NCBI RefSeq assembly: GCF_009756665.1 | Contig: NZ_CP037953.1 | Span: 1,302,001-1,366,000 of the forward strand | From: Permianibacter aggregans | GTDB lineage: Bacteria > Pseudomonadota > Gammaproteobacteria > Enterobacterales > Permianibacteraceae | Length of the DNA: 64,000 nt | Direction: 5' to 3' | In this document: positions 22,755-31,505 of the stretch, piece after piece | Numbering within the stretch: the first letter of the stretch is position 1 | How the letters are laid out: every line of letters begins with the position of its first letter | Program-made: the position numbers and the translations under genes | The notes under the pieces: generated by a model | The model's input: the letters and a program-made list of their open reading frames with translations, nothing else | Databases searched by the model: none | Told to the model about the DNA's origin: nothing

Positions 22755-24596
22755 CTAGCCGGGCAGCAGCCTCACCGCCCCTTTATCGGCACTGCTGGCC
22801 ATCAGCGCGTAAGCCCGCAAAGCGTAGCTTATTTGGCGCTGGCGATTCACCGGCGTAAAAGCTTGCGCGCCGCGTTGCTGCTGGCGTTCATGTCGCGCCT
22901 TTAGCGTTTCATCGCTGATGTCCAACTGTAGCCGACGGGTGGGAATGTCAATCACGATGCGGTCGCCTTCTTCAATTAGGGCAATGGCGCCAGCGCTGGC
23001 CGCTTCCGGTGAAATATGGCCTATCGATAAACCAGACGTGCCGCCAGAAAAACGGCCATCGGTAATCAACGCGCAGGATTTGCCCAAGCCCTTCGCTTTC
23101 AGATAGCTGGTGGGATAAAGCATTTCCTGCATACCAGGCCCACCTTTGGGACCTTCGTAACGAATGACCACACAATCGCCGGCGACGATCTGATCTGCAA
23201 GAATCGCCTCAACGGCAGCATCTTGCGATTCGAATACCCGTGCGCGGCCATTGAATTGCAAACAGCTTTGATCGACACCGGCGGTTTTAACAATGCAACC
23301 ATCCGGCGCAATATTGCCGAACAACACCGCCAAACCGCCGTCCTGACTGTAGGCATGCTCGCGCGAACGAATGCAGCCTTGTTTTCGGTCATCATCCACC
23401 GTTGGCCAACGCTCGCTCTGACTGCAAGCCTGCACCGTGCGTCGACCGCCGGGAGCTGCTTTGAAAAACTGCAAAACCGCTTGGTCGTTCGTTTGCGCGA
23501 TATCCCACTTTGCAATCGCCTCTGCCTGAGTCGACGCATGGACAGTGCCCGCTTCCCCCTGCAACAAACCAGCGCGCTGCAACTCACCAAGAATCGCGTA
23601 GACACCACCGGCGCGATGCACATCTTCAATATGGTACTGCTGCGTGCTCGGCGCCACTTTACATAAATGCGGTACAACACGACTCAAGCGATCAATATCC
23701 TGCATCGTGAACGGCACACCCGCTTCGTGCGCCGCCGCCAGCAAATGCAATACGGTATTCGTTGATCCGCCCATCGCGATATCCAGCGTCATCGCGTTCT
23801 CAAATGCCTGCAACGAGGCAATCGCACGCGGCAACACCCGCTCATTATTTTTCTCATAATATTCACGCGCCAACTCGACAATCCGAGCCGAGGCACGCGC
23901 AAACAATTGCTTACGATCGGCATGCGTTGCCAATACCGTGCCGTTGCCTGGTAATGCCAAACCGAGCGCTTCGACCAAACAGTTCATCGAATTGGCCGTG
24001 AACATACCCGAGCAAGAACCGCAGGTCGGGCAGGCATTGTGCTCAGTATCTTCGACTTCCTGATCGGAAACCGAGGCGTCAGCGGCGCTGACCATGGCGT
24101 CGACCAAATCGAGCTTGATCAGATTGTCACCACGCTTGACCTTGCCCGCCTCCATCGGCCCGCCGGAAACAAAAATCACCGGAATATTCAGCCGCAGCGC
24201 CGCCATCAACATTCCCGGCGTGATCTTGTCGCAATTGGAAATACAGATCATCGCGTCAACGCAATGCGCGTTCACCACATACTCGACTGAATCGGCAATC
24301 AACTCGCGTGACGGCAAGCTGTACAACATGCCGTCATGGCCCATCGCAATACCATCGTCAATAGCGATGGTATTGAACTCACGCGGCACACCACCGGCAT
24401 CACGCACCGCTGCCGATACCCACTCACCGACTTCCTTCAAATGCACATGACCCGGCACAAACTGCGTATAGGAGTTGACTACCGCGATCAGTGGTTTATG
24501 AAAGTCGTTTTCCGACAAACCGGTCGCGCGCCAGAGCGCACGGGCTCCGGCCATATTGCGACCTGCGAAAGTGGTTTTTGAGCGGTATTGCGGCAT
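22755..24596 (-). CDS. ilvD: Dihydroxy-acid dehydratase IlvD
   Basis: A 613-residue iron-sulfur dehydratase of valine, isoleucine and leucine biosynthesis. The cluster and substrate segments are intact: [30 protein letters not shown], and the C-terminal [19 protein letters not shown]. The ATG at 24596 is followed directly by [21 protein letters not shown] in the family's usual way. It lies 240 bp after ilvE, with a REP pair in the gap, so it may be read from the ilv operon or from its own promoter. Confidence 0.97.
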
Positions 24597-24683
24597 AGCG
24601 TTTTCCAAATCAGTTTTTATCGTTGCGTTACTGGATTTCCCTTTGCGCCAGCCGATGCTTGCCTATCCAGTTCCGTCCAAGTA

Positions 24684-24836: not shown

Positions 24837-25802
24837 CTAAGCATAAATCGCCCGTACCTGCGCCGAAGTCGGATTCTCCACCGGCTCCAACCACCCATGC
24901 GTATCCGCCGTCTCGCCAGTAAACAAGCCAAAAAACTTCTTCTGAATCGCATGCGTTACCGGACCGCGCGCACCACTACCAACCTTCATGCTATCAACCG
25001 ACCGCACCGGCACGATTTCCGAAGCGGTGCCACACAGGAAAATCTCATCAGCAACGTACAGAGCTTCACGCGCAATGCTCTGCTCGATCACCTCATAGCC
25101 CAATTGCTTGGCCAACACGATCACCGCATCACGAGTCAAACCTGGCAGAATCGAAGCAGTCAATGGCGGCGTATACAGCTTCTTCTTTTTCACCAGAAAA
25201 ATGTTCTGACCAGCGCCTTCCGACACCATGTTCTGGGCATCCAGCGCAATCCCTTCAGCATAACCATGACGACGCGCTTCGCGTGCAATCAGCGCTGACG
25301 ACAGATAATTACCGCCCGCTTTGGCACCTGTTGGCATGGTATTGGGCGCCAGCCGATGCCAGGACGAAACGCCAACATCAACACCACGCTCTTGCGTGCC
25401 TTCGCCAAGGTAAGCGCCCCACTCGAACGCAGCAATCGCGACGTCGACCGGCGTTTCCGGTCCCGGCACAATGCCGATACCGCCATAACCGAAATACGCC
25501 ACCGGACGCAGATAAGCCTGTTTCAGATTATTGGTGCGAACAATCTCTTTGCAGGCGTTGATGATGTCTTCTTTGCTGTACGGAATTTCCATGCGGTAAA
25601 TGCGCGCCGAATCAAACAGGCGATCGATATGTTCGGTCAAACGAAAAACAGCTGTGCCCGCCGGCGTATCGTAAGCGCGAATGCCTTCGAATACTGACGA
25701 GCCATAATGCAGCGCGTGCGTCAGCACATGGGTAGTGGCTTCAAACCATGGCCGTATTTGGCCGTTGAACCAGATTTTCTCAGGCGGCGTTAATGCGGCC
25801 AT
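24837..25802 (-). CDS. ilvE: Branched-chain amino acid aminotransferase IlvE
   Basis: A 321-residue fold-type IV PLP aminotransferase performing the last step of valine, leucine and isoleucine synthesis. THVLTHALHYGSSVFEGIRAY near the start, GAKAGGNYLSSALIAREA and SEGAGQNIFLV are family marks, and the PLP lysine lies in the PTGAKAGGNY region neighbourhood or the preceding YLRP block. The start at 25802 has AAGGAG 6-7 nt upstream; the frame is open for 44 more codons but these lie inside cimA. It overlaps cimA by 23 bp. Confidence 0.96.
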   Translation of the reverse strand: MAALTPPEKIWFNGQIRPWFEATTHVLTHALHYGSSVFEGIRAYDTPAGTAVFRLTEHIDRLFDSARIYRMEIPYSKEDIINACKEIVRTNNLKQAYLRPVAYFGYGGIGIVPGPETPVDVAIAAFEWGAYLGEGTQERGVDVGVSSWHRLAPNTMPTGAKAGGNYLSSALIAREARRHGYAEGIALDAQNMVSEGAGQNIFLVKKKKLYTPPLTASILPGLTRDAVIVLAKQLGYEVIEQSIAREALYVADEIFLCGTASEIVPVRSVDSMKVGSGARGPVTHAIQKKFFGLFTGETADTHGWLEPVENPTSAQVRAIYA

Positions 25803-27372
25803 AATTTGCTCCTTTTTCCTGCAGACGTAAGATGAATAATTCCAGACTCGCCAGCAGCGCCTCGGCACTGGCCTCAATAATGTTTTCCGAACAACCAACC
25901 GTACACCAGCTTTGCTCGCCAACCGTTGCTTCAATCCAGACGCGTGTGGTAGCGGCTGTTGCCTGTTCCGGATCGAGAATACGCACTTTGTAATCGCTCA
26001 GGCGAATATCTTCGATGCACGGATAAAACGGATTCAGCGCTTGCCGTAAAGCCAGATCAATTGCGGCGACCGGACCATTGGCTTCGGCAGCAGTCAGCGT
26101 TTCAACGCCATCAACCTGTACTTTAGCCGTTGCTAAACTTTTCTGGTGCTCACCCGTGCGCCGCAGCGATTGCACCATCAAATCCCGCACTGAAAAAGGT
26201 GGCCGGTAATTCGGCGCTTGCCTGCGCACAATCAACTCAAAACTACCGTCAGCCGCTTCCAGACTCAGGCCGCGCGCTTCCGCTTGCTTGATTTCATTGG
26301 TGACGATTTGCTCGGCCTCTCCAATATCCAGCCCCAATTGTTCGGCGCGCAAACGAATATTGCCGCGGCCGGCCAATTCCGAAACTAGAATCTCACGACC
26401 ATTGCCAACCAAGGCCGGATCGATGTGCTCGTAACTCGCCGTCATCCGCTGCACCGCTGCGGCATGCAAGCCACCTTTATGGGCAAAGGCATTATGGCCT
26501 ACATAGGCGGCAAAATTATTCGGCGCCAAATTGGCAATTTCGCTGACTTGTCTTGAAACCTGAGTCAGCTCCTGCAGTTTTTCTGCGGCGCGCACCGCTT
26601 GGCGCATTTTCAATGCCAGGTTTGGCAACAACGACACCAGATTGGCATTGCCGCAGCGCTCGCCAATACCGTTGATCGTTCCTTGGATTTGTCGGGCACC
26701 GGCACGCACAGCGGCCAATGAATTGGCGACGGCCAACTCACAGTCGTTGTGGGCATGAATGCCGATTGCTGTTTTCACTTTTCTTGTTACCGCCTCGATC
26801 ACGGTAAAAATCGTTTCCGGTAAACTGCCGCCATTGGTATCACATAACACCAGCCAGTCGGCACCGGCGCTTTCCGCCGCCTGCAGACAAGCCAGCGCGT
26901 ATTCACCATCCTCAGCAAAGCCATCAAAAAAATGTTCGGCGTCAAACACCACTTCGCGACCTTCACGCTTCAGCAAACGAACACTATCTTCAATCGCCCG
27001 CAAGTTATCCTGCTTACTAGCTCGCAGAATTTGTTCGACATGCAAGCGAGAGGCTTTACCGACGATGGTCACGACCGGAGTTTGCGCTTCCAGCAAACCG
27101 ATTAGCTGTGCATCGTGATCGGCACTGTTGTTCATTCGGCGTGTAGCACCAAATGCACACACTATTGTTGCGCCCAGATCGAGCTCACGTGCCCGACGGA
27201 AATACTCGGCATCTTTCGGGTTCGATGACGGCCAGCCGCCTTCGATGTAATCGATGCCAAAATCGGCAAGCAGTTTGGTGATGCGCAGCTTGTCGGCCAC
27301 ACTGAAGCTGATGCCTTGACGCTGGGCACCATCCCGCAAGGTGGTATCGTATAAAAGTACCGATGAACTCAC
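25780..27372 (-). CDS. cimA: Citramalate synthase CimA
   Basis: A 530-residue acyltransferase of the 2-isopropylmalate synthase superfamily: acetyl-CoA plus pyruvate gives (R)-citramalate. LYDTTLRDGAQRQGISFSVADKLRI, IEGGWPSSNPKDAEYF, DTNGGSLP, GIHAHNDCELAVANS and GTINGIGERCGNANL are in the CimA pattern rather than LeuA. A C-terminal LeuA-type regulatory dimer domain spans about 390-520. Citramalate leads to 2-oxobutyrate, so isoleucine is made without threonine deaminase. It overlaps ilvM by 4 nt and ilvE by 23 nt. Confidence 0.93.
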   Translation of the reverse strand: MSSSVLLYDTTLRDGAQRQGISFSVADKLRITKLLADFGIDYIEGGWPSSNPKDAEYFRRARELDLGATIVCAFGATRRMNNSADHDAQLIGLLEAQTPVVTIVGKASRLHVEQILRASKQDNLRAIEDSVRLLKREGREVVFDAEHFFDGFAEDGEYALACLQAAESAGADWLVLCDTNGGSLPETIFTVIEAVTRKVKTAIGIHAHNDCELAVANSLAAVRAGARQIQGTINGIGERCGNANLVSLLPNLALKMRQAVRAAEKLQELTQVSRQVSEIANLAPNNFAAYVGHNAFAHKGGLHAAAVQRMTASYEHIDPALVGNGREILVSELAGRGNIRLRAEQLGLDIGEAEQIVTNEIKQAEARGLSLEAADGSFELIVRRQAPNYRPPFSVRDLMVQSLRRTGEHQKSLATAKVQVDGVETLTAAEANGPVAAIDLALRQALNPFYPCIEDIRLSDYKVRILDPEQATAATTRVWIEATVGEQSWCTVGCSENIIEASAEALLASLELFILRLQEKGANYGRINAA

Positions 27373-27626
27373 ACCGCACTCCGCAGCAACATGGGTTCGG
27401 CGACGGCATTGACGCTCATGACATCGACCAGTTTTCCCAGCTGCCGGCTCAGATTTTCGGTGGCCCGTTCGCCGGTCAAACGCAGTGTCACGTCATAAAT
27501 ATCCTGACTGCGCGAATTCTGCACCTGCAGCGACTGCACGGCGAAACCACGGTGACGGGTGACGCGCAGCAGTCGTTCCAGCGCGCCTTCGTTGTTGCGA
27601 ACGGTCAGAAACATAACGGATTCCAT
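27369..27626 (-). CDS. ilvM: Acetolactate synthase small subunit, IlvM type
   Basis: An 85-residue ACT-domain subunit. VMFLTVRNNEGALERLLRVTRHRGF aligns by eye with E. coli IlvM (ERVLRVVRHRGF), and QLGKLVDV matches the end of the domain. The ATG at 27626 has GAGGA 8 nt upstream; an ATG six codons earlier has no Shine-Dalgarno. It pairs with the large subunit encoded 40 bp upstream. The last four bases overlap cimA. Confidence 0.9.
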   Translation of the reverse strand: MESVMFLTVRNNEGALERLLRVTRHRGFAVQSLQVQNSRSQDIYDVTLRLTGERATENLSRQLGKLVDVMSVNAVAEPMLLRSAV

Positions 27627-27666
27627 GATCTTTTCCTCGTTCATCGTTTCGGTTGATTCACCGCGT

Positions 27667-29316
27667 TTACACGCGCACGTTTTCCATCATGTCGTCATTG
27701 GTTTTGCCCGGAGGCACCAATGGCCAGACATTTTCTTTCGGGTCGATTACGACATGCAGCAACAGCGGACCTGGCTCACGCAATAGCGTGTCGATGGCCG
27801 CACTTTCTTCACTGCGGGCACGAATGGTTTTGGCCGGAATACCATAAGCGGCGGCAATCGCGACAAAATCCGGGTTATCGGATAAATCGATTTCACTGTA
27901 ACGCTCGGCAAAAAACAGCTCTTGCCATTGTCGAACCATGCCCAGTGCCTGGTTGTCGAGCAGAATGATCTTGACCGGCAGTTGGTAGCGTTTAATCGTC
28001 GCCAACTCCTGGACGTTCATCTGAAATGAACCATCACCGCTGACGCAAATCACACGTGCTTCCGGCATCGCCAGTTGTGCGCCAATGGCAGCCGGCAGGC
28101 CGTAACCCATCGTACCCAGACCACCGCTGGTCAAATGCTGACGGGCATGACGAAAACCGTAGTGCTGCGCCACCCACATTTGATGCTGACCGACATCGCA
28201 GCTAACAAACGTGTTGTCATCAGCTCGCTGTGATAATTGGTTCAGCAAACCCGGCGCATAAATGCCCTGCCCCGGCGCGTCATAACGAAAGGCGTACAGC
28301 CGCGCTTCGTGCTGACATTGTCGACGCCAGTTGTCGATACGAGTTGGCACCGCCAACGCCGGCAGCAACTGATTCAGATCGCCAATCAAACGAATGTCGG
28401 CAGCGCGCAGCTTGCCGATTTCCGCTTCATCCATATCCAAATGCACAACACGAGCATTCGGCGCAAAACCGGTCAGTTTGCCGGTGGCACGATCATCAAA
28501 ACGGGCGCCAACGACAATCAACAAATCGGCACGTTGCACCGCATAGTTCGCGGCACGAGTACCATGCATACCGAGCATGCCAAGATTCAGCGGATGATCG
28601 AATGGCAGCACGCCCAAACCTTTCAGCGTGCTGACTTGCGGAATGCCGCTGGCTTCGACAAATTCGCGCAAGGCATTTTGCGCTTCAGCCAACACGACGC
28701 CGCCACCAACATACAACAACGGTTTTTGCGCCGAAGAAATCAGCGCGCGCGCCTGATGCAACGCCATCCGATCCAATTCATGTTTGCTCGGTGTCGGCTC
28801 AGGTACCGGTGCAAAACTGAACGGCGCCACTTGCACGTCTTTTGGAATGTCGATCAACACTGGCCCTGGCCGACCAGACATCGCCAGATGACATGCCTCT
28901 TTGACGATACGCGGCAAATCCTCAACACGGCGCACCAGGTACGAATGCTTGACGATCGGCAAGGTCATGCCAAAGACATCAACCTCTTGAAAGGCATCGG
29001 TGCCGATCAACGGATTGGCGACCTGACCAGTAATCGCCAACATTGGCACCGAGTCCATATAGGCATTGGCGATACCGGTGATCAAATTGGTGGCGCCAGG
29101 ACCGCTGGTCGCCATGCACACGCCCAGGCGACCACTGGCACGCGCATAACCATCGGCCGCCAGCGCCGCGCCTTGTTCATGCCGACACAAAATATGCGTC
29201 AGCGTGGAATCGAGCAGCGCATCGTAAACCGGCATGATCGCGCCGCCCGGATAGCCGAAGATGTGCGTTACACCTTCCGCCTCCAGGGCACGACACAGCG
29301 CATGGGCTCCGTTCAC
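27667..29316 (-). CDS. ilvG: Acetolactate synthase large subunit
   Basis: A 549-residue ThDP/FAD enzyme making 2-acetolactate and 2-aceto-2-hydroxybutyrate; E. coli IlvG has 548. [45 protein letters not shown] (ThDP-binding GDG) and [13 protein letters not shown] are all present. The GTG at 29316 has AAGGAAG seven nucleotides upstream; the frame continues upstream into ilvC but that part has no domain character. With IlvM next to it, the IlvG/IlvM (isozyme II) type is most likely. Confidence 0.95.
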
Positions 29317-29332
29317 GGGCAAGCTTCCTTGT

Positions 29333-30400
29333 TTAGAATTTTTCGGTTTCACGGTAGGCAACGGCTTTCGCGCCCAGCGCACCGCCGCCACTCGGATTCG
29401 CTTTTTCATTGCCCGGCAACCAGCGCATATGGGTGCGTAATTCGGCGCCGACTTTTTCGATTGGCAACGCCAAATCTTTTGCCATCAGCGCTTGATAATT
29501 TTTGCCGCCAGCTTCGTTTTCGGCGATCCATTCTCTCGCGAAACGGCCTGACGTGATGTCATCCAACACTTCCTGCATGCGCTGACGAGTTTCGGCGTTG
29601 ATCACGCGCGGACCACGGGTCAGGTCACCGTATTTGGCCGTGTCGGAAACAAACTCGTGCATACGCTTGAAGCCGCCTTCGTACAGCAAATCGACAATCA
29701 ACTTCAGTTCGTGCAGGCATTCGTAATAGGCGATTTCTGGTTGGTAACCGGCGTTGACCAGCGTTTCAAAACCGGCGGCAACCAATTCGGTGGCCCCACC
29801 GCACAGCACCGCTTGCTCACCGAACAGATCGGTTTCGGTTTCTTCCTTGAACGTGGTTTCGTAAACGCCAGCGCGGGTGCAACCGATGCCGTGGGCATAG
29901 GCCAATGCGCGTTCCAGCGCCGTGCCGGTAGCGTCCTGATGGACAGCAACCAAGCCCGGTACGCCGGCGCCTTTCTGGAATTCCATCCGTACCAACCGGC
30001 CCGGGCTTTTCGGGGCAACCATCGCGACATCGATATCGGCATTTGGCTGGATCAGGCCGTACAGGATGTTGAAGCCGTGGCTGAACATCAGCAGCGCACC
30101 CGGCTTGATGTTGGCTTTGACGTGTTGCTCCCATACGGCTTTCTGGGCCAAGTCCGGGGTCAGCAGCATGACCACATCAGCGTCTTTCGCCGCTTCGGCG
30201 AACGGCAGCACGGTGAAGCCATCGGCTTTCGCGGCTTGCCAGGTCTTGCCTTCCGGACGCAGTCCGATCACAACATCCAGCCCGGAATCGCGCAGGTTCT
30301 GGGCCTGCGCCTTGCCTTGCGAGCCGTAACCCAATACGGCAATGCGCTTGTCACGAAGCGCGGCCGGGCGGGCATCTTGTTCGAAATACATCTTGGCCAT
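29333..30400 (-). CDS. ilvC: Ketol-acid reductoisomerase IlvC
   Basis: A 355-residue NADPH-dependent class I enzyme. [22 protein letters not shown] is the cofactor-binding loop. [30 protein letters not shown] and [18 protein letters not shown] hold the magnesium and substrate residues. The ATG at 30400 has GGAG 8 nt before it; an ATG 10 codons upstream is less fitting. It is the first structural gene after the attenuator leader and precedes the acetolactate synthase large subunit by 16 bp. Confidence 0.97.
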
Positions 30401-30455
30401 TGTTCTTTCTCCTTTCCTGATTGTCTTCATTAAAAATTTCGTTGGTCCTGAAACG

Positions 30456-30493
30456 AAGAAGCCCCCCGGACCTTTCGGTGCGGGGGGCTTCTT
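30456..30493 (-). terminator. Attenuator hairpin of the ilv operon
   Basis: A 13-bp GC-rich stem, extended by three more pairs around a GAAA tetraloop with one C-C mismatch, lies between the leader peptide and ilvC. Downstream on the minus strand comes CTTCTTCGTTTC, only a weak U-tract. The segment CCCGCACC (30477-30484) in its 5' arm is exactly complementary to GGTGCGGG inside the leader ORF (30528-30535), a candidate antiterminator. Confidence 0.75.
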
Positions 30494-30506
30494 GGCTTAA
30501 TCTCGT

Positions 30507-30596
30507 TTAGTTTCTCGCCGACAGCATCCCGCACCACGATCGAATAATCACGGTCACGAGTACGAGAATGACGAATTCAATATTGCGGTGCGGCAT
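30507..30596 (-). CDS. ilvL: ilv operon leader peptide (attenuation)
   Basis: A 29-residue ORF on the minus strand. The centre reads FVILVLVTVII, ten branched-chain or hydrophobic control codons in a run of eleven (Val, Ile and Leu; one Phe and one Thr). It stops at TAA 14 nt before the attenuator stem. This is the classic layout of the enterobacterial ilvL leader: low charged tRNA for Val, Ile or Leu would stall the ribosome and prevent the terminator. The Shine-Dalgarno is weak (AAGCGAA). The assignment rests on composition and position. Confidence 0.85.
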   Translation of the reverse strand: MPHRNIEFVILVLVTVIIRSWCGMLSARN

Positions 30597-30633
30597 GGCA
30601 GTTCGCTTGTAAGTCTTGCTGTTTGAGGTTTCA

Positions 30634-30662
30634 GGTTTACGTTAACGGAAATTACGTAAACC
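30634..30662. promoter_or_regulatory. Perfect 9-bp inverted repeat upstream of the ilv leader
   Basis: GGTTTACGT (30634-30642) and ACGTAAACC (30654-30662) with an 11-bp spacer, between the ilv leader and the divergent TetR gene. On the minus strand it would lie at or just after a weak promoter (TTGCCG, 18 bp, TACCTT). Operator candidate for either direction. Confidence 0.4.
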
Positions 30663-30711
30663 GTGAGTGCAAGGTAGCACGCCCTTTCTGAATCCGGCAA
30701 GCAAAAACTTG

Positions 30712-30726
30712 ATAACCATTGGTTAT
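30712..30726. promoter_or_regulatory. ATAACC-N3-GGTTAT palindrome, TetR operator candidate
   Basis: A perfect 6-bp inverted repeat with a 3-bp spacer, 111 bp upstream of the chosen TetR start. Size and symmetry fit TetR-family operators (inference). Confidence 0.4.
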
Positions 30727-30836
30727 GAAACGAGCAAACTGGTCTATGCTCGGTGATACGGCTGTTCCGCTCGCTGGACGGCTGTGTAAGACCGACTATG
30801 CTTATTTTTAAACCAACAACGAAGTATTCCCGAGCT

Positions 30837-31505
30837 ATGGCTGAAGAAAAAACCTCCATGCAGTATCGCGGTCGCAAGACCCGTCGTGCCGATGGCCATG
30901 CCCGCCGTCAGGCAATTTTGGAAGCGGCGTTGCGGATTATCGTCCGGGACGGCATTCGAGCGGTCCGACACCGGGCCGTAGCCCAGGAAGCGCAGGTGCC
31001 GCTGGCCGCGACGACGTACTACTTCCGAGACTTGGGTGAGCTGATTTCCGACTCATTCACGCTCTATGCCGAACGAGCGTTGGAAGCCGCCAAGTCGCTG
31101 GAAAAGGACACTGTCGCCGCGCTCAATGAGCACCGACCGCAAATGAATACGCCCCAAGGACGCGAGCAGCTGGCGCGCATGCTGACCGAGTTCGTCATGC
31201 ACTTCATGCGTTCACAAACCGAAGATCGCGACGATAGGCAAATCGAGCAGGCGTTCCGTCAGGAAGCCTTGCGCAACGAAAAGCTGGCCAACGATGTGCA
31301 AGTGCCCTACCGGGCCAATCTCGGCATTCTCGAACGCTTCTTCCAGGGCTTGGGCTCCGCCGATCCGGTTGCCGATGCCCATGCGGTATTCGGCGCGATC
31401 AAACACTGGGAATTTCAGTTGTTGGTCAACACCCCGACCGACGAAGATTGGGCTACAGCAGAACGCAGCTTGCGGCGTCTGGTCATGGGCTTGTTCAAGC
31501 TCTGA
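30837..31505 (+). CDS. TetR/AcrR-family transcriptional regulator
   Basis: A 222-residue repressor-type protein. The N-terminal HTH (about 19-65: ARRQAILEAALRIIVRDGIRAVRHRAVAQEAQVPLAATTYYF written in parts) has the family's standard pattern. The C-terminal ligand domain follows and resembles no family I can name. The start is uncertain: the ATG at 30837 has only a poor Shine-Dalgarno, and ATGs at 30798 and 30858 are possible. It is divergent from the ilv operon but is not obviously its regulator; the ligand is unknown. Confidence 0.8.
   Translation: MAEEKTSMQYRGRKTRRADGHARRQAILEAALRIIVRDGIRAVRHRAVAQEAQVPLAATTYYFRDLGELISDSFTLYAERALEAAKSLEKDTVAALNEHRPQMNTPQGREQLARMLTEFVMHFMRSQTEDRDDRQIEQAFRQEALRNEKLANDVQVPYRANLGILERFFQGLGSADPVADAHAVFGAIKHWEFQLLVNTPTDEDWATAERSLRRLVMGLFKL

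Follow-up and report, generated by a model that had tools for sequence, protein, structure and literature searches.

The region ahead of ilvC in the stretch of DNA analysed here (64,000 nucleotides, hereafter the window) raises the question of whether an attenuator of the classical ilvGMEDA kind governs an operon in which the order and content of the genes have changed. The first-pass annotation had described an operon which begins with ilvC and carries cimA, and this was confirmed as ilvC-ilvG-ilvM-cimA-ilvE-ilvD. The genes were named by NCBIfam models and all six scored over the cut-off:

29333 to 30400, minus strand: ilvC, class I ketol-acid reductoisomerase (NF004017, 524 bits, cut-off 336)
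27667 to 29409, minus strand: ilvG, acetolactate synthase 2 large subunit (NF006524, 916 bits, cut-off 738); longest ORF, with the true start probably near 29320
27369 to 27644, minus strand: ilvM, acetolactate synthase 2 small subunit (NF008362, 69.4 bits, cut-off 68)
25780 to 27372, minus strand: cimA, citramalate synthase (TIGR00977, 645 bits, cut-off 450)
24837 to 25934, minus strand: ilvE (NF005146, 429 bits, cut-off 279); longest ORF, with homology beginning near 25781
22755 to 24608, minus strand: ilvD, dihydroxy-acid dehydratase (NF009103, 1133 bits, cut-off 710)

By our analysis, transcription of these six genes is very probably governed by ribosome-mediated attenuation of the ilvL (ilvGMEDA) type. 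Read along the minus strand, the leader ORF (30596-30507) comes first, then a hairpin (30493-30456) and then the ilvC ATG at 30400. The leader and the sequence upstream of it comprise the following features:

30671 to 30700, minus strand: weak promoter candidate, TTGCCG, 18 nt and TACCTT, with TG before the -10 element (sequence)
30507 to 30596, minus strand: ilvL leader peptide ORF of 29 codons, MPHRNIEFVILVLVTVIIRSWCGMLSARN (translation, ILV-density shuffles, homologous leaders in relatives)
30543 to 30575, minus strand: control codons F V I L V L V T V I I, leader codons 8-18 (translation)

The 29-codon ORF centred on FVILVLVTVII, as reported earlier, was recovered by translation of the minus strand from 30596 to 30507, with its ATG at 30596-30594 and the stop codon TAA at 30509-30507. 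Nine of the eleven central codons 8-18 encode Val, Ile or Leu. Of 5000 dinucleotide-preserving shuffles of 30400-30720, only one gave a coding-strand open stretch of this density (9/11), and the leader is the sole ATG-started ILV-dense ORF of 15-50 codons in the whole window. No clear Shine-Dalgarno sequence was found for the leader ORF and no promoter passed a consensus scan; both other members of the family carry a promoter-like TTGCTG/TTGCCG, 17-18 nt and TAGTTT/TACTTC, akin to the candidate in the window. The leader is a small gene missing for gene callers which is now supplied, and the sequence signature of the attenuator can be used to find more of them.

The RNA between the start of the leader and the end of the hairpin holds four segments:

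30585 to 30593, minus strand: segment 1, protector arm CCGCACCGC in leader codons 2-4, pairing with 30537-30529 (minimum-free-energy fold)
30528 to 30537, minus strand: segment 2, antiterminator 5' arm GTGGTGCGGG (exact complement of segment 3, duplex energy, three-way covariation)
30477 to 30493, minus strand: segment 3, terminator 5' arm AAGAAGCCCCCCGCACC, containing CCCGCACC at 30484-30477 (computed folds, stem covariation)
30456 to 30472, minus strand: segment 4, terminator 3' arm GGTCCGGGGGGCTTCTT, followed by CGTTTC (computed folds, stem covariation)

The terminator is built from a 13-bp outer stem (30493-30481 with 30468-30456), one C.C mismatch, three further pairs and a GAAA loop. The stem itself stands as first described, and its distance from the leader stop was counted as 13 nt and not 14. 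The fold of 30640-30445 reached -80.6 kcal/mol against -51.4 +/- 3.7 in shuffles (z -8). The complementarity claimed between the 5' arm of the terminator and a segment inside the leader is exact, CCCGCACC (30484-30477) and GGTGCGGG (30535-30528) being perfect reverse complements, and the 2:3 duplex has an energy of -22.2 kcal/mol in comparison to -12.6 in shuffles (p 0.005). In the minimum-free-energy fold, CCGCACCGC (30593-30585) is paired with GTGGTGCGG (30537-30529) alongside the standing terminator, so that segment 2 has segments 1 and 3 as exclusive partners and segment 3 has segments 2 and 4. This third partner, which was absent from the first-pass annotation, completes the 1:2, 2:3 and 3:4 pairings, and the set is that of the classical attenuator.

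The computed folds depend upon how much of the RNA is available. In RNA that ends at 30474, segments 2 and 3 pair at -21 to -27 kcal/mol whenever exposure of the leader starts between 30560 and 30534; if it starts at 30530 or later, this pairing becomes weaker and is then lost. When the leader was masked to 30545 with the same RNA end, 2:3 formed at -25.5 kcal/mol, and it did not form when segment 2 was masked. The antiterminator, earlier proposed as a possibility, is thus predicted to fold as long as arm 4 is missing and segment 2 lies open, and segment 2 also covaries with segment 3. In the complete RNA the terminator is more stable (-40.8 kcal/mol) than the fold with 2:3 forced (-30.3 kcal/mol), and hence antitermination must win kinetically, as it does in known attenuator systems.

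From this layout we infer translation of the leader, the positions of the ribosome, termination in the cell and a response to the amino acids as follows. When charged Val, Ile and Leu tRNAs are ample, the ribosome would reach the leader stop and cover segment 2, the 3:4 terminator would form and RNA polymerase would stop before ilvC. A shortage of any one of these tRNAs would stall the ribosome on codons 8-17. Segments 1 and 2 could then not pair, and segment 2 would be available to segment 3 while segment 4 has yet to be transcribed; with 2:3 paired the terminator could not form and the operon would be read. If the leader is left untranslated, 1:2 would be expected to form and the terminator to prevail.

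Comparison of homologues has shown compensatory changes in both pairings. Among 26 distinct terminators, changes on both sides were found in 10 of the 13 stem pairs, although these terminators were chosen for distinctness and the counts are therefore of types and not of independent events. The covariation score of the stem was 0.356 against 0.145 in shuffles; none of 500 shuffles scored as high, and sliding the alignment gave 0.134 or less. As for segment 2, TGCGGG was found in 22 of the 50 leaders with the arm CCCCGCA and in none of the 21 others, while AGCGGG was found in 6 of the 13 leaders with CCCCGCT and was absent from all 50 leaders of the CA type; its one occurrence without CCCCGCT was with an arm of type CG. 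TACGGG occurred solely with CCCCGTA, GGCGGG with CCCCGCC plus one case with CCCCGCA, and CGCGGG, which shares the GCGGG core, with several arm types. Segment 2 thus changes in step with segment 3, and this is strong evidence from comparison of the sequences, which is not a significance test because related genomes share changes. In 64 of 71 homologues an upstream partner within the leader is predicted for segment 2, and in most cases this partner is the control codons themselves; a partner in codons that precede them, as in the window, is found in a minority (14/71, by a loose count).

In ancestry, and not only in arrangement, the attenuator in the window is the ilvL attenuator known from enteric bacteria. 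A BLAST search of the leader region against E. coli gave a best match of 33/35 bases (94.3%) at the ilvL terminator, and in the record inspected the match lies 21 nt past the stop codon annotated for ilvL, with ilvX-ilvG following it; such a match was present in 5375 of 5426 E. coli genomes. The two are alike in the Val/Ile/Leu-rich leader, in the terminator sequence including the C.C mismatch and the GAAA loop, in the antiterminator core GTGCGGG/CCCGCAC and in the acetolactate synthase II genes downstream. The ilv attenuator of classical ilvGMEDA layout suggested at first pass is therefore upheld: its parts are conserved, they covary, and they share homology with ilvL of E. coli.

Within the order, the terminator pattern matched in 91 of 296 genomes. 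The loci examined were 30 returned with this order-wide search, 40 further places and the nearest relatives, and all 70 leader-plus-terminator matches lie before ilvG or ilvC, each with a Val/Ile/Leu-rich leader ORF. Eight pattern matches (L058-L062, L117-L119) have no leader and do not precede any ilv gene; they were regarded as terminators of other origin and left out. In the class, the strict pattern matched in 3 of 369 genomes including that of the window, which makes the signature nearly specific to the order. The two other matches belong to one family outside the order, f111 (L055, L056); they have a near-identical terminator and an ilvL-like leader, MNILALLVIVSLVLVVVARPRGETAG, before ilvG, which may reflect transfer or an older origin. 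Conservation in relatives had been suggested as a check, and none of those examined with the ilvC-ilvG order had lost the leader ORF. Two genomes with class I ilvC in another gene order (G018, G024) showed no leader, and in these ilvC sits after an apparent acetolactate synthase small subunit gene.

The weak U-tract noticed earlier is real: the tail after the hairpin is CTTCTTCGTTTC, with a short and interrupted CGTTTC after the stem. CGTTT(C/T) is found 3' of the hairpin in the family of the window and in Pleionea (window 30447-30456, L004, L005, L033), and TCGTTT recurs at this place in several other relatives. The interrupted U-tract thus seems, from these sequences, to be kept among relatives. 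The first-pass annotation had suggested from the weak tract that pausing or ribosome release may matter more here. It may be argued from this tail that the leader and hairpin are conserved but terminate poorly, and that control rests on pausing of RNA polymerase, on termination assisted by Rho/NusG or on a change in the translation of ilvC. Both other family members are similarly T-poor, whereas E. coli and the genus with tandem attenuators described below have runs of 7-9 T. On the other hand, the stem is very stable, its 3' arm ends in CTTCTT so that the last transcribed stretch is still U-rich, and the ilvC start codon lies 56 nt 3' of the hairpin and outside it, so that the layout does not suggest a translational switch. 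We consider this explanation unlikely. It is likewise unlikely that this ilvC-first line with cimA for ilvA has a retuned ilvL switch, whose protector arm precedes the control codons and whose U-tract is weakened, leaving the response to pausing or to factor-assisted termination, and that in a sister line the switch was duplicated in series.

Control of the operon could also lie mainly with a divergent regulator gene, attenuation being minor:

30753 to 31505, plus strand: TetR-family gene, divergent from the ilv leader

This gene is divergent from the operon in the window and in the same-genus genome G001 (68% identity), but in G002 and Pleionea, which retain both leader and terminator, no such gene was found next to the operon; a leading role for it is very unlikely. 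An ordinary terminator or fortuitous structure with an ILV-rich ORF arising by chance has a negligible probability, for although short ORFs are common, the single success in 5000 shuffles, the homologues at 70 places always before ilvG or ilvC and the covariation refute it. The ilvL-type attenuator is hence retained as the explanation of the locus.

The operon behind this attenuator is different from ilvLXGMEDA of E. coli. Its first gene is a class I ilvC whereas ilvX-ilvG stand first in E. coli; it has cimA and no ilvA, whereas the E. coli operon begins with ilvG and ends with ilvA; codons 2-4, which precede the control codons, hold segment 1; and its U-tract is weak. The attenuator is thus of the known ilvL type in a rearranged operon. 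The ilvC-first layout is not unique to the window genome, as it was found in 14 genomes of at least four families: three of the window's family, eight of genus g9 (family f8), G058, G031 and Pleionea. Eight of these operons were read through, and seven carry cimA and one (G031) ilvA. The order ilvC-G-M-cimA-E-D is shared by the window genome, G001 (same genus), G002 (same family), G058, G072, G560 and Pleionea sp. CnH1-48, while G031 has ilvC-ilvG-ilvM-ilvE-ilvD-ilvA without cimA in the operon.

The search for IlvA covered the biosynthetic type (TIGR01124), which scored over the cut-off in G031, while all seven genomes with cimA stayed below it; G002 and G058 gave weaker matches of 183-204 bits (cut-off 411). 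The best match in the window genome is a diaminopropionate ammonia-lyase-like protein. Since ilvA passed only in G031, which lacks cimA in its operon, the two genes replace each other in this set. In the window operon cimA probably supplies 2-oxobutyrate for isoleucine, a role established for the enzyme. The ilvL attenuator therefore stays with the operon despite the changed content, with ilvC in front and cimA exchanged for ilvA. Carbon for isoleucine would come from pyruvate and acetyl-CoA and not from threonine, with the amino acid sensor kept.

Among described systems, the ilvBN (ivbL) and leuABCD (leuL) attenuators belong to the same class of mechanism (PMC6123439); they have other genes and leaders and are likened by mechanism, not by sequence. 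The uORF of Corynebacterium ilvBNC (PMC10272879; candidates also in PMC1262725) provides a BCAA-rich leader for an ilv operon containing ilvC, in Actinobacteria and with ilvB first, and no sequence kinship is claimed. A passage of PMC6123439 citing Vitreschak 2004 places such attenuators across Gram-negative ilv operons, and ilvG leaders are described for Shewanella (PMC2659441). The literature search gave nothing relevant on ilvL with ilvC and ilvG (Vitreschak et al. 2004 being outside its scope) or on cimA with ilvC operons. In Rfam no match to the region passed the gathering score. The best was RF02744 (Rev39_5p_UTR), named for soft rot Enterobacteriaceae, on the same hairpin region at 33.3 bits (E 7e-8), far under its gathering score of 88; low-scoring Thr_leader, Phe_leader and other matches were dismissed as chance or just a shared GC hairpin.

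Eight genomes of genus g9 (family f8) that have class I ilvC were read (L096, L097, L098, L099, L100, L101, L102, L009), and in every one ilvC is preceded by two complete attenuators of the ilvL type in series. Their leaders are, for example, MLKQALNMLSVSFIVINVIVVILLPQRGRV followed by MNLLNSIIIVVLIIVVILLPQRGRY, each with its own hairpin and T-run, and the copies lie 149-320 nt apart from stop to stop. This arrangement is potentially more surprising than the attenuator of the window itself. The only paper found with tandem attenuators as its subject deals with Salmonella mgtCBR, a different system, and the tandem copies in this related genus make the effect of two leader-peptide attenuators in series testable.
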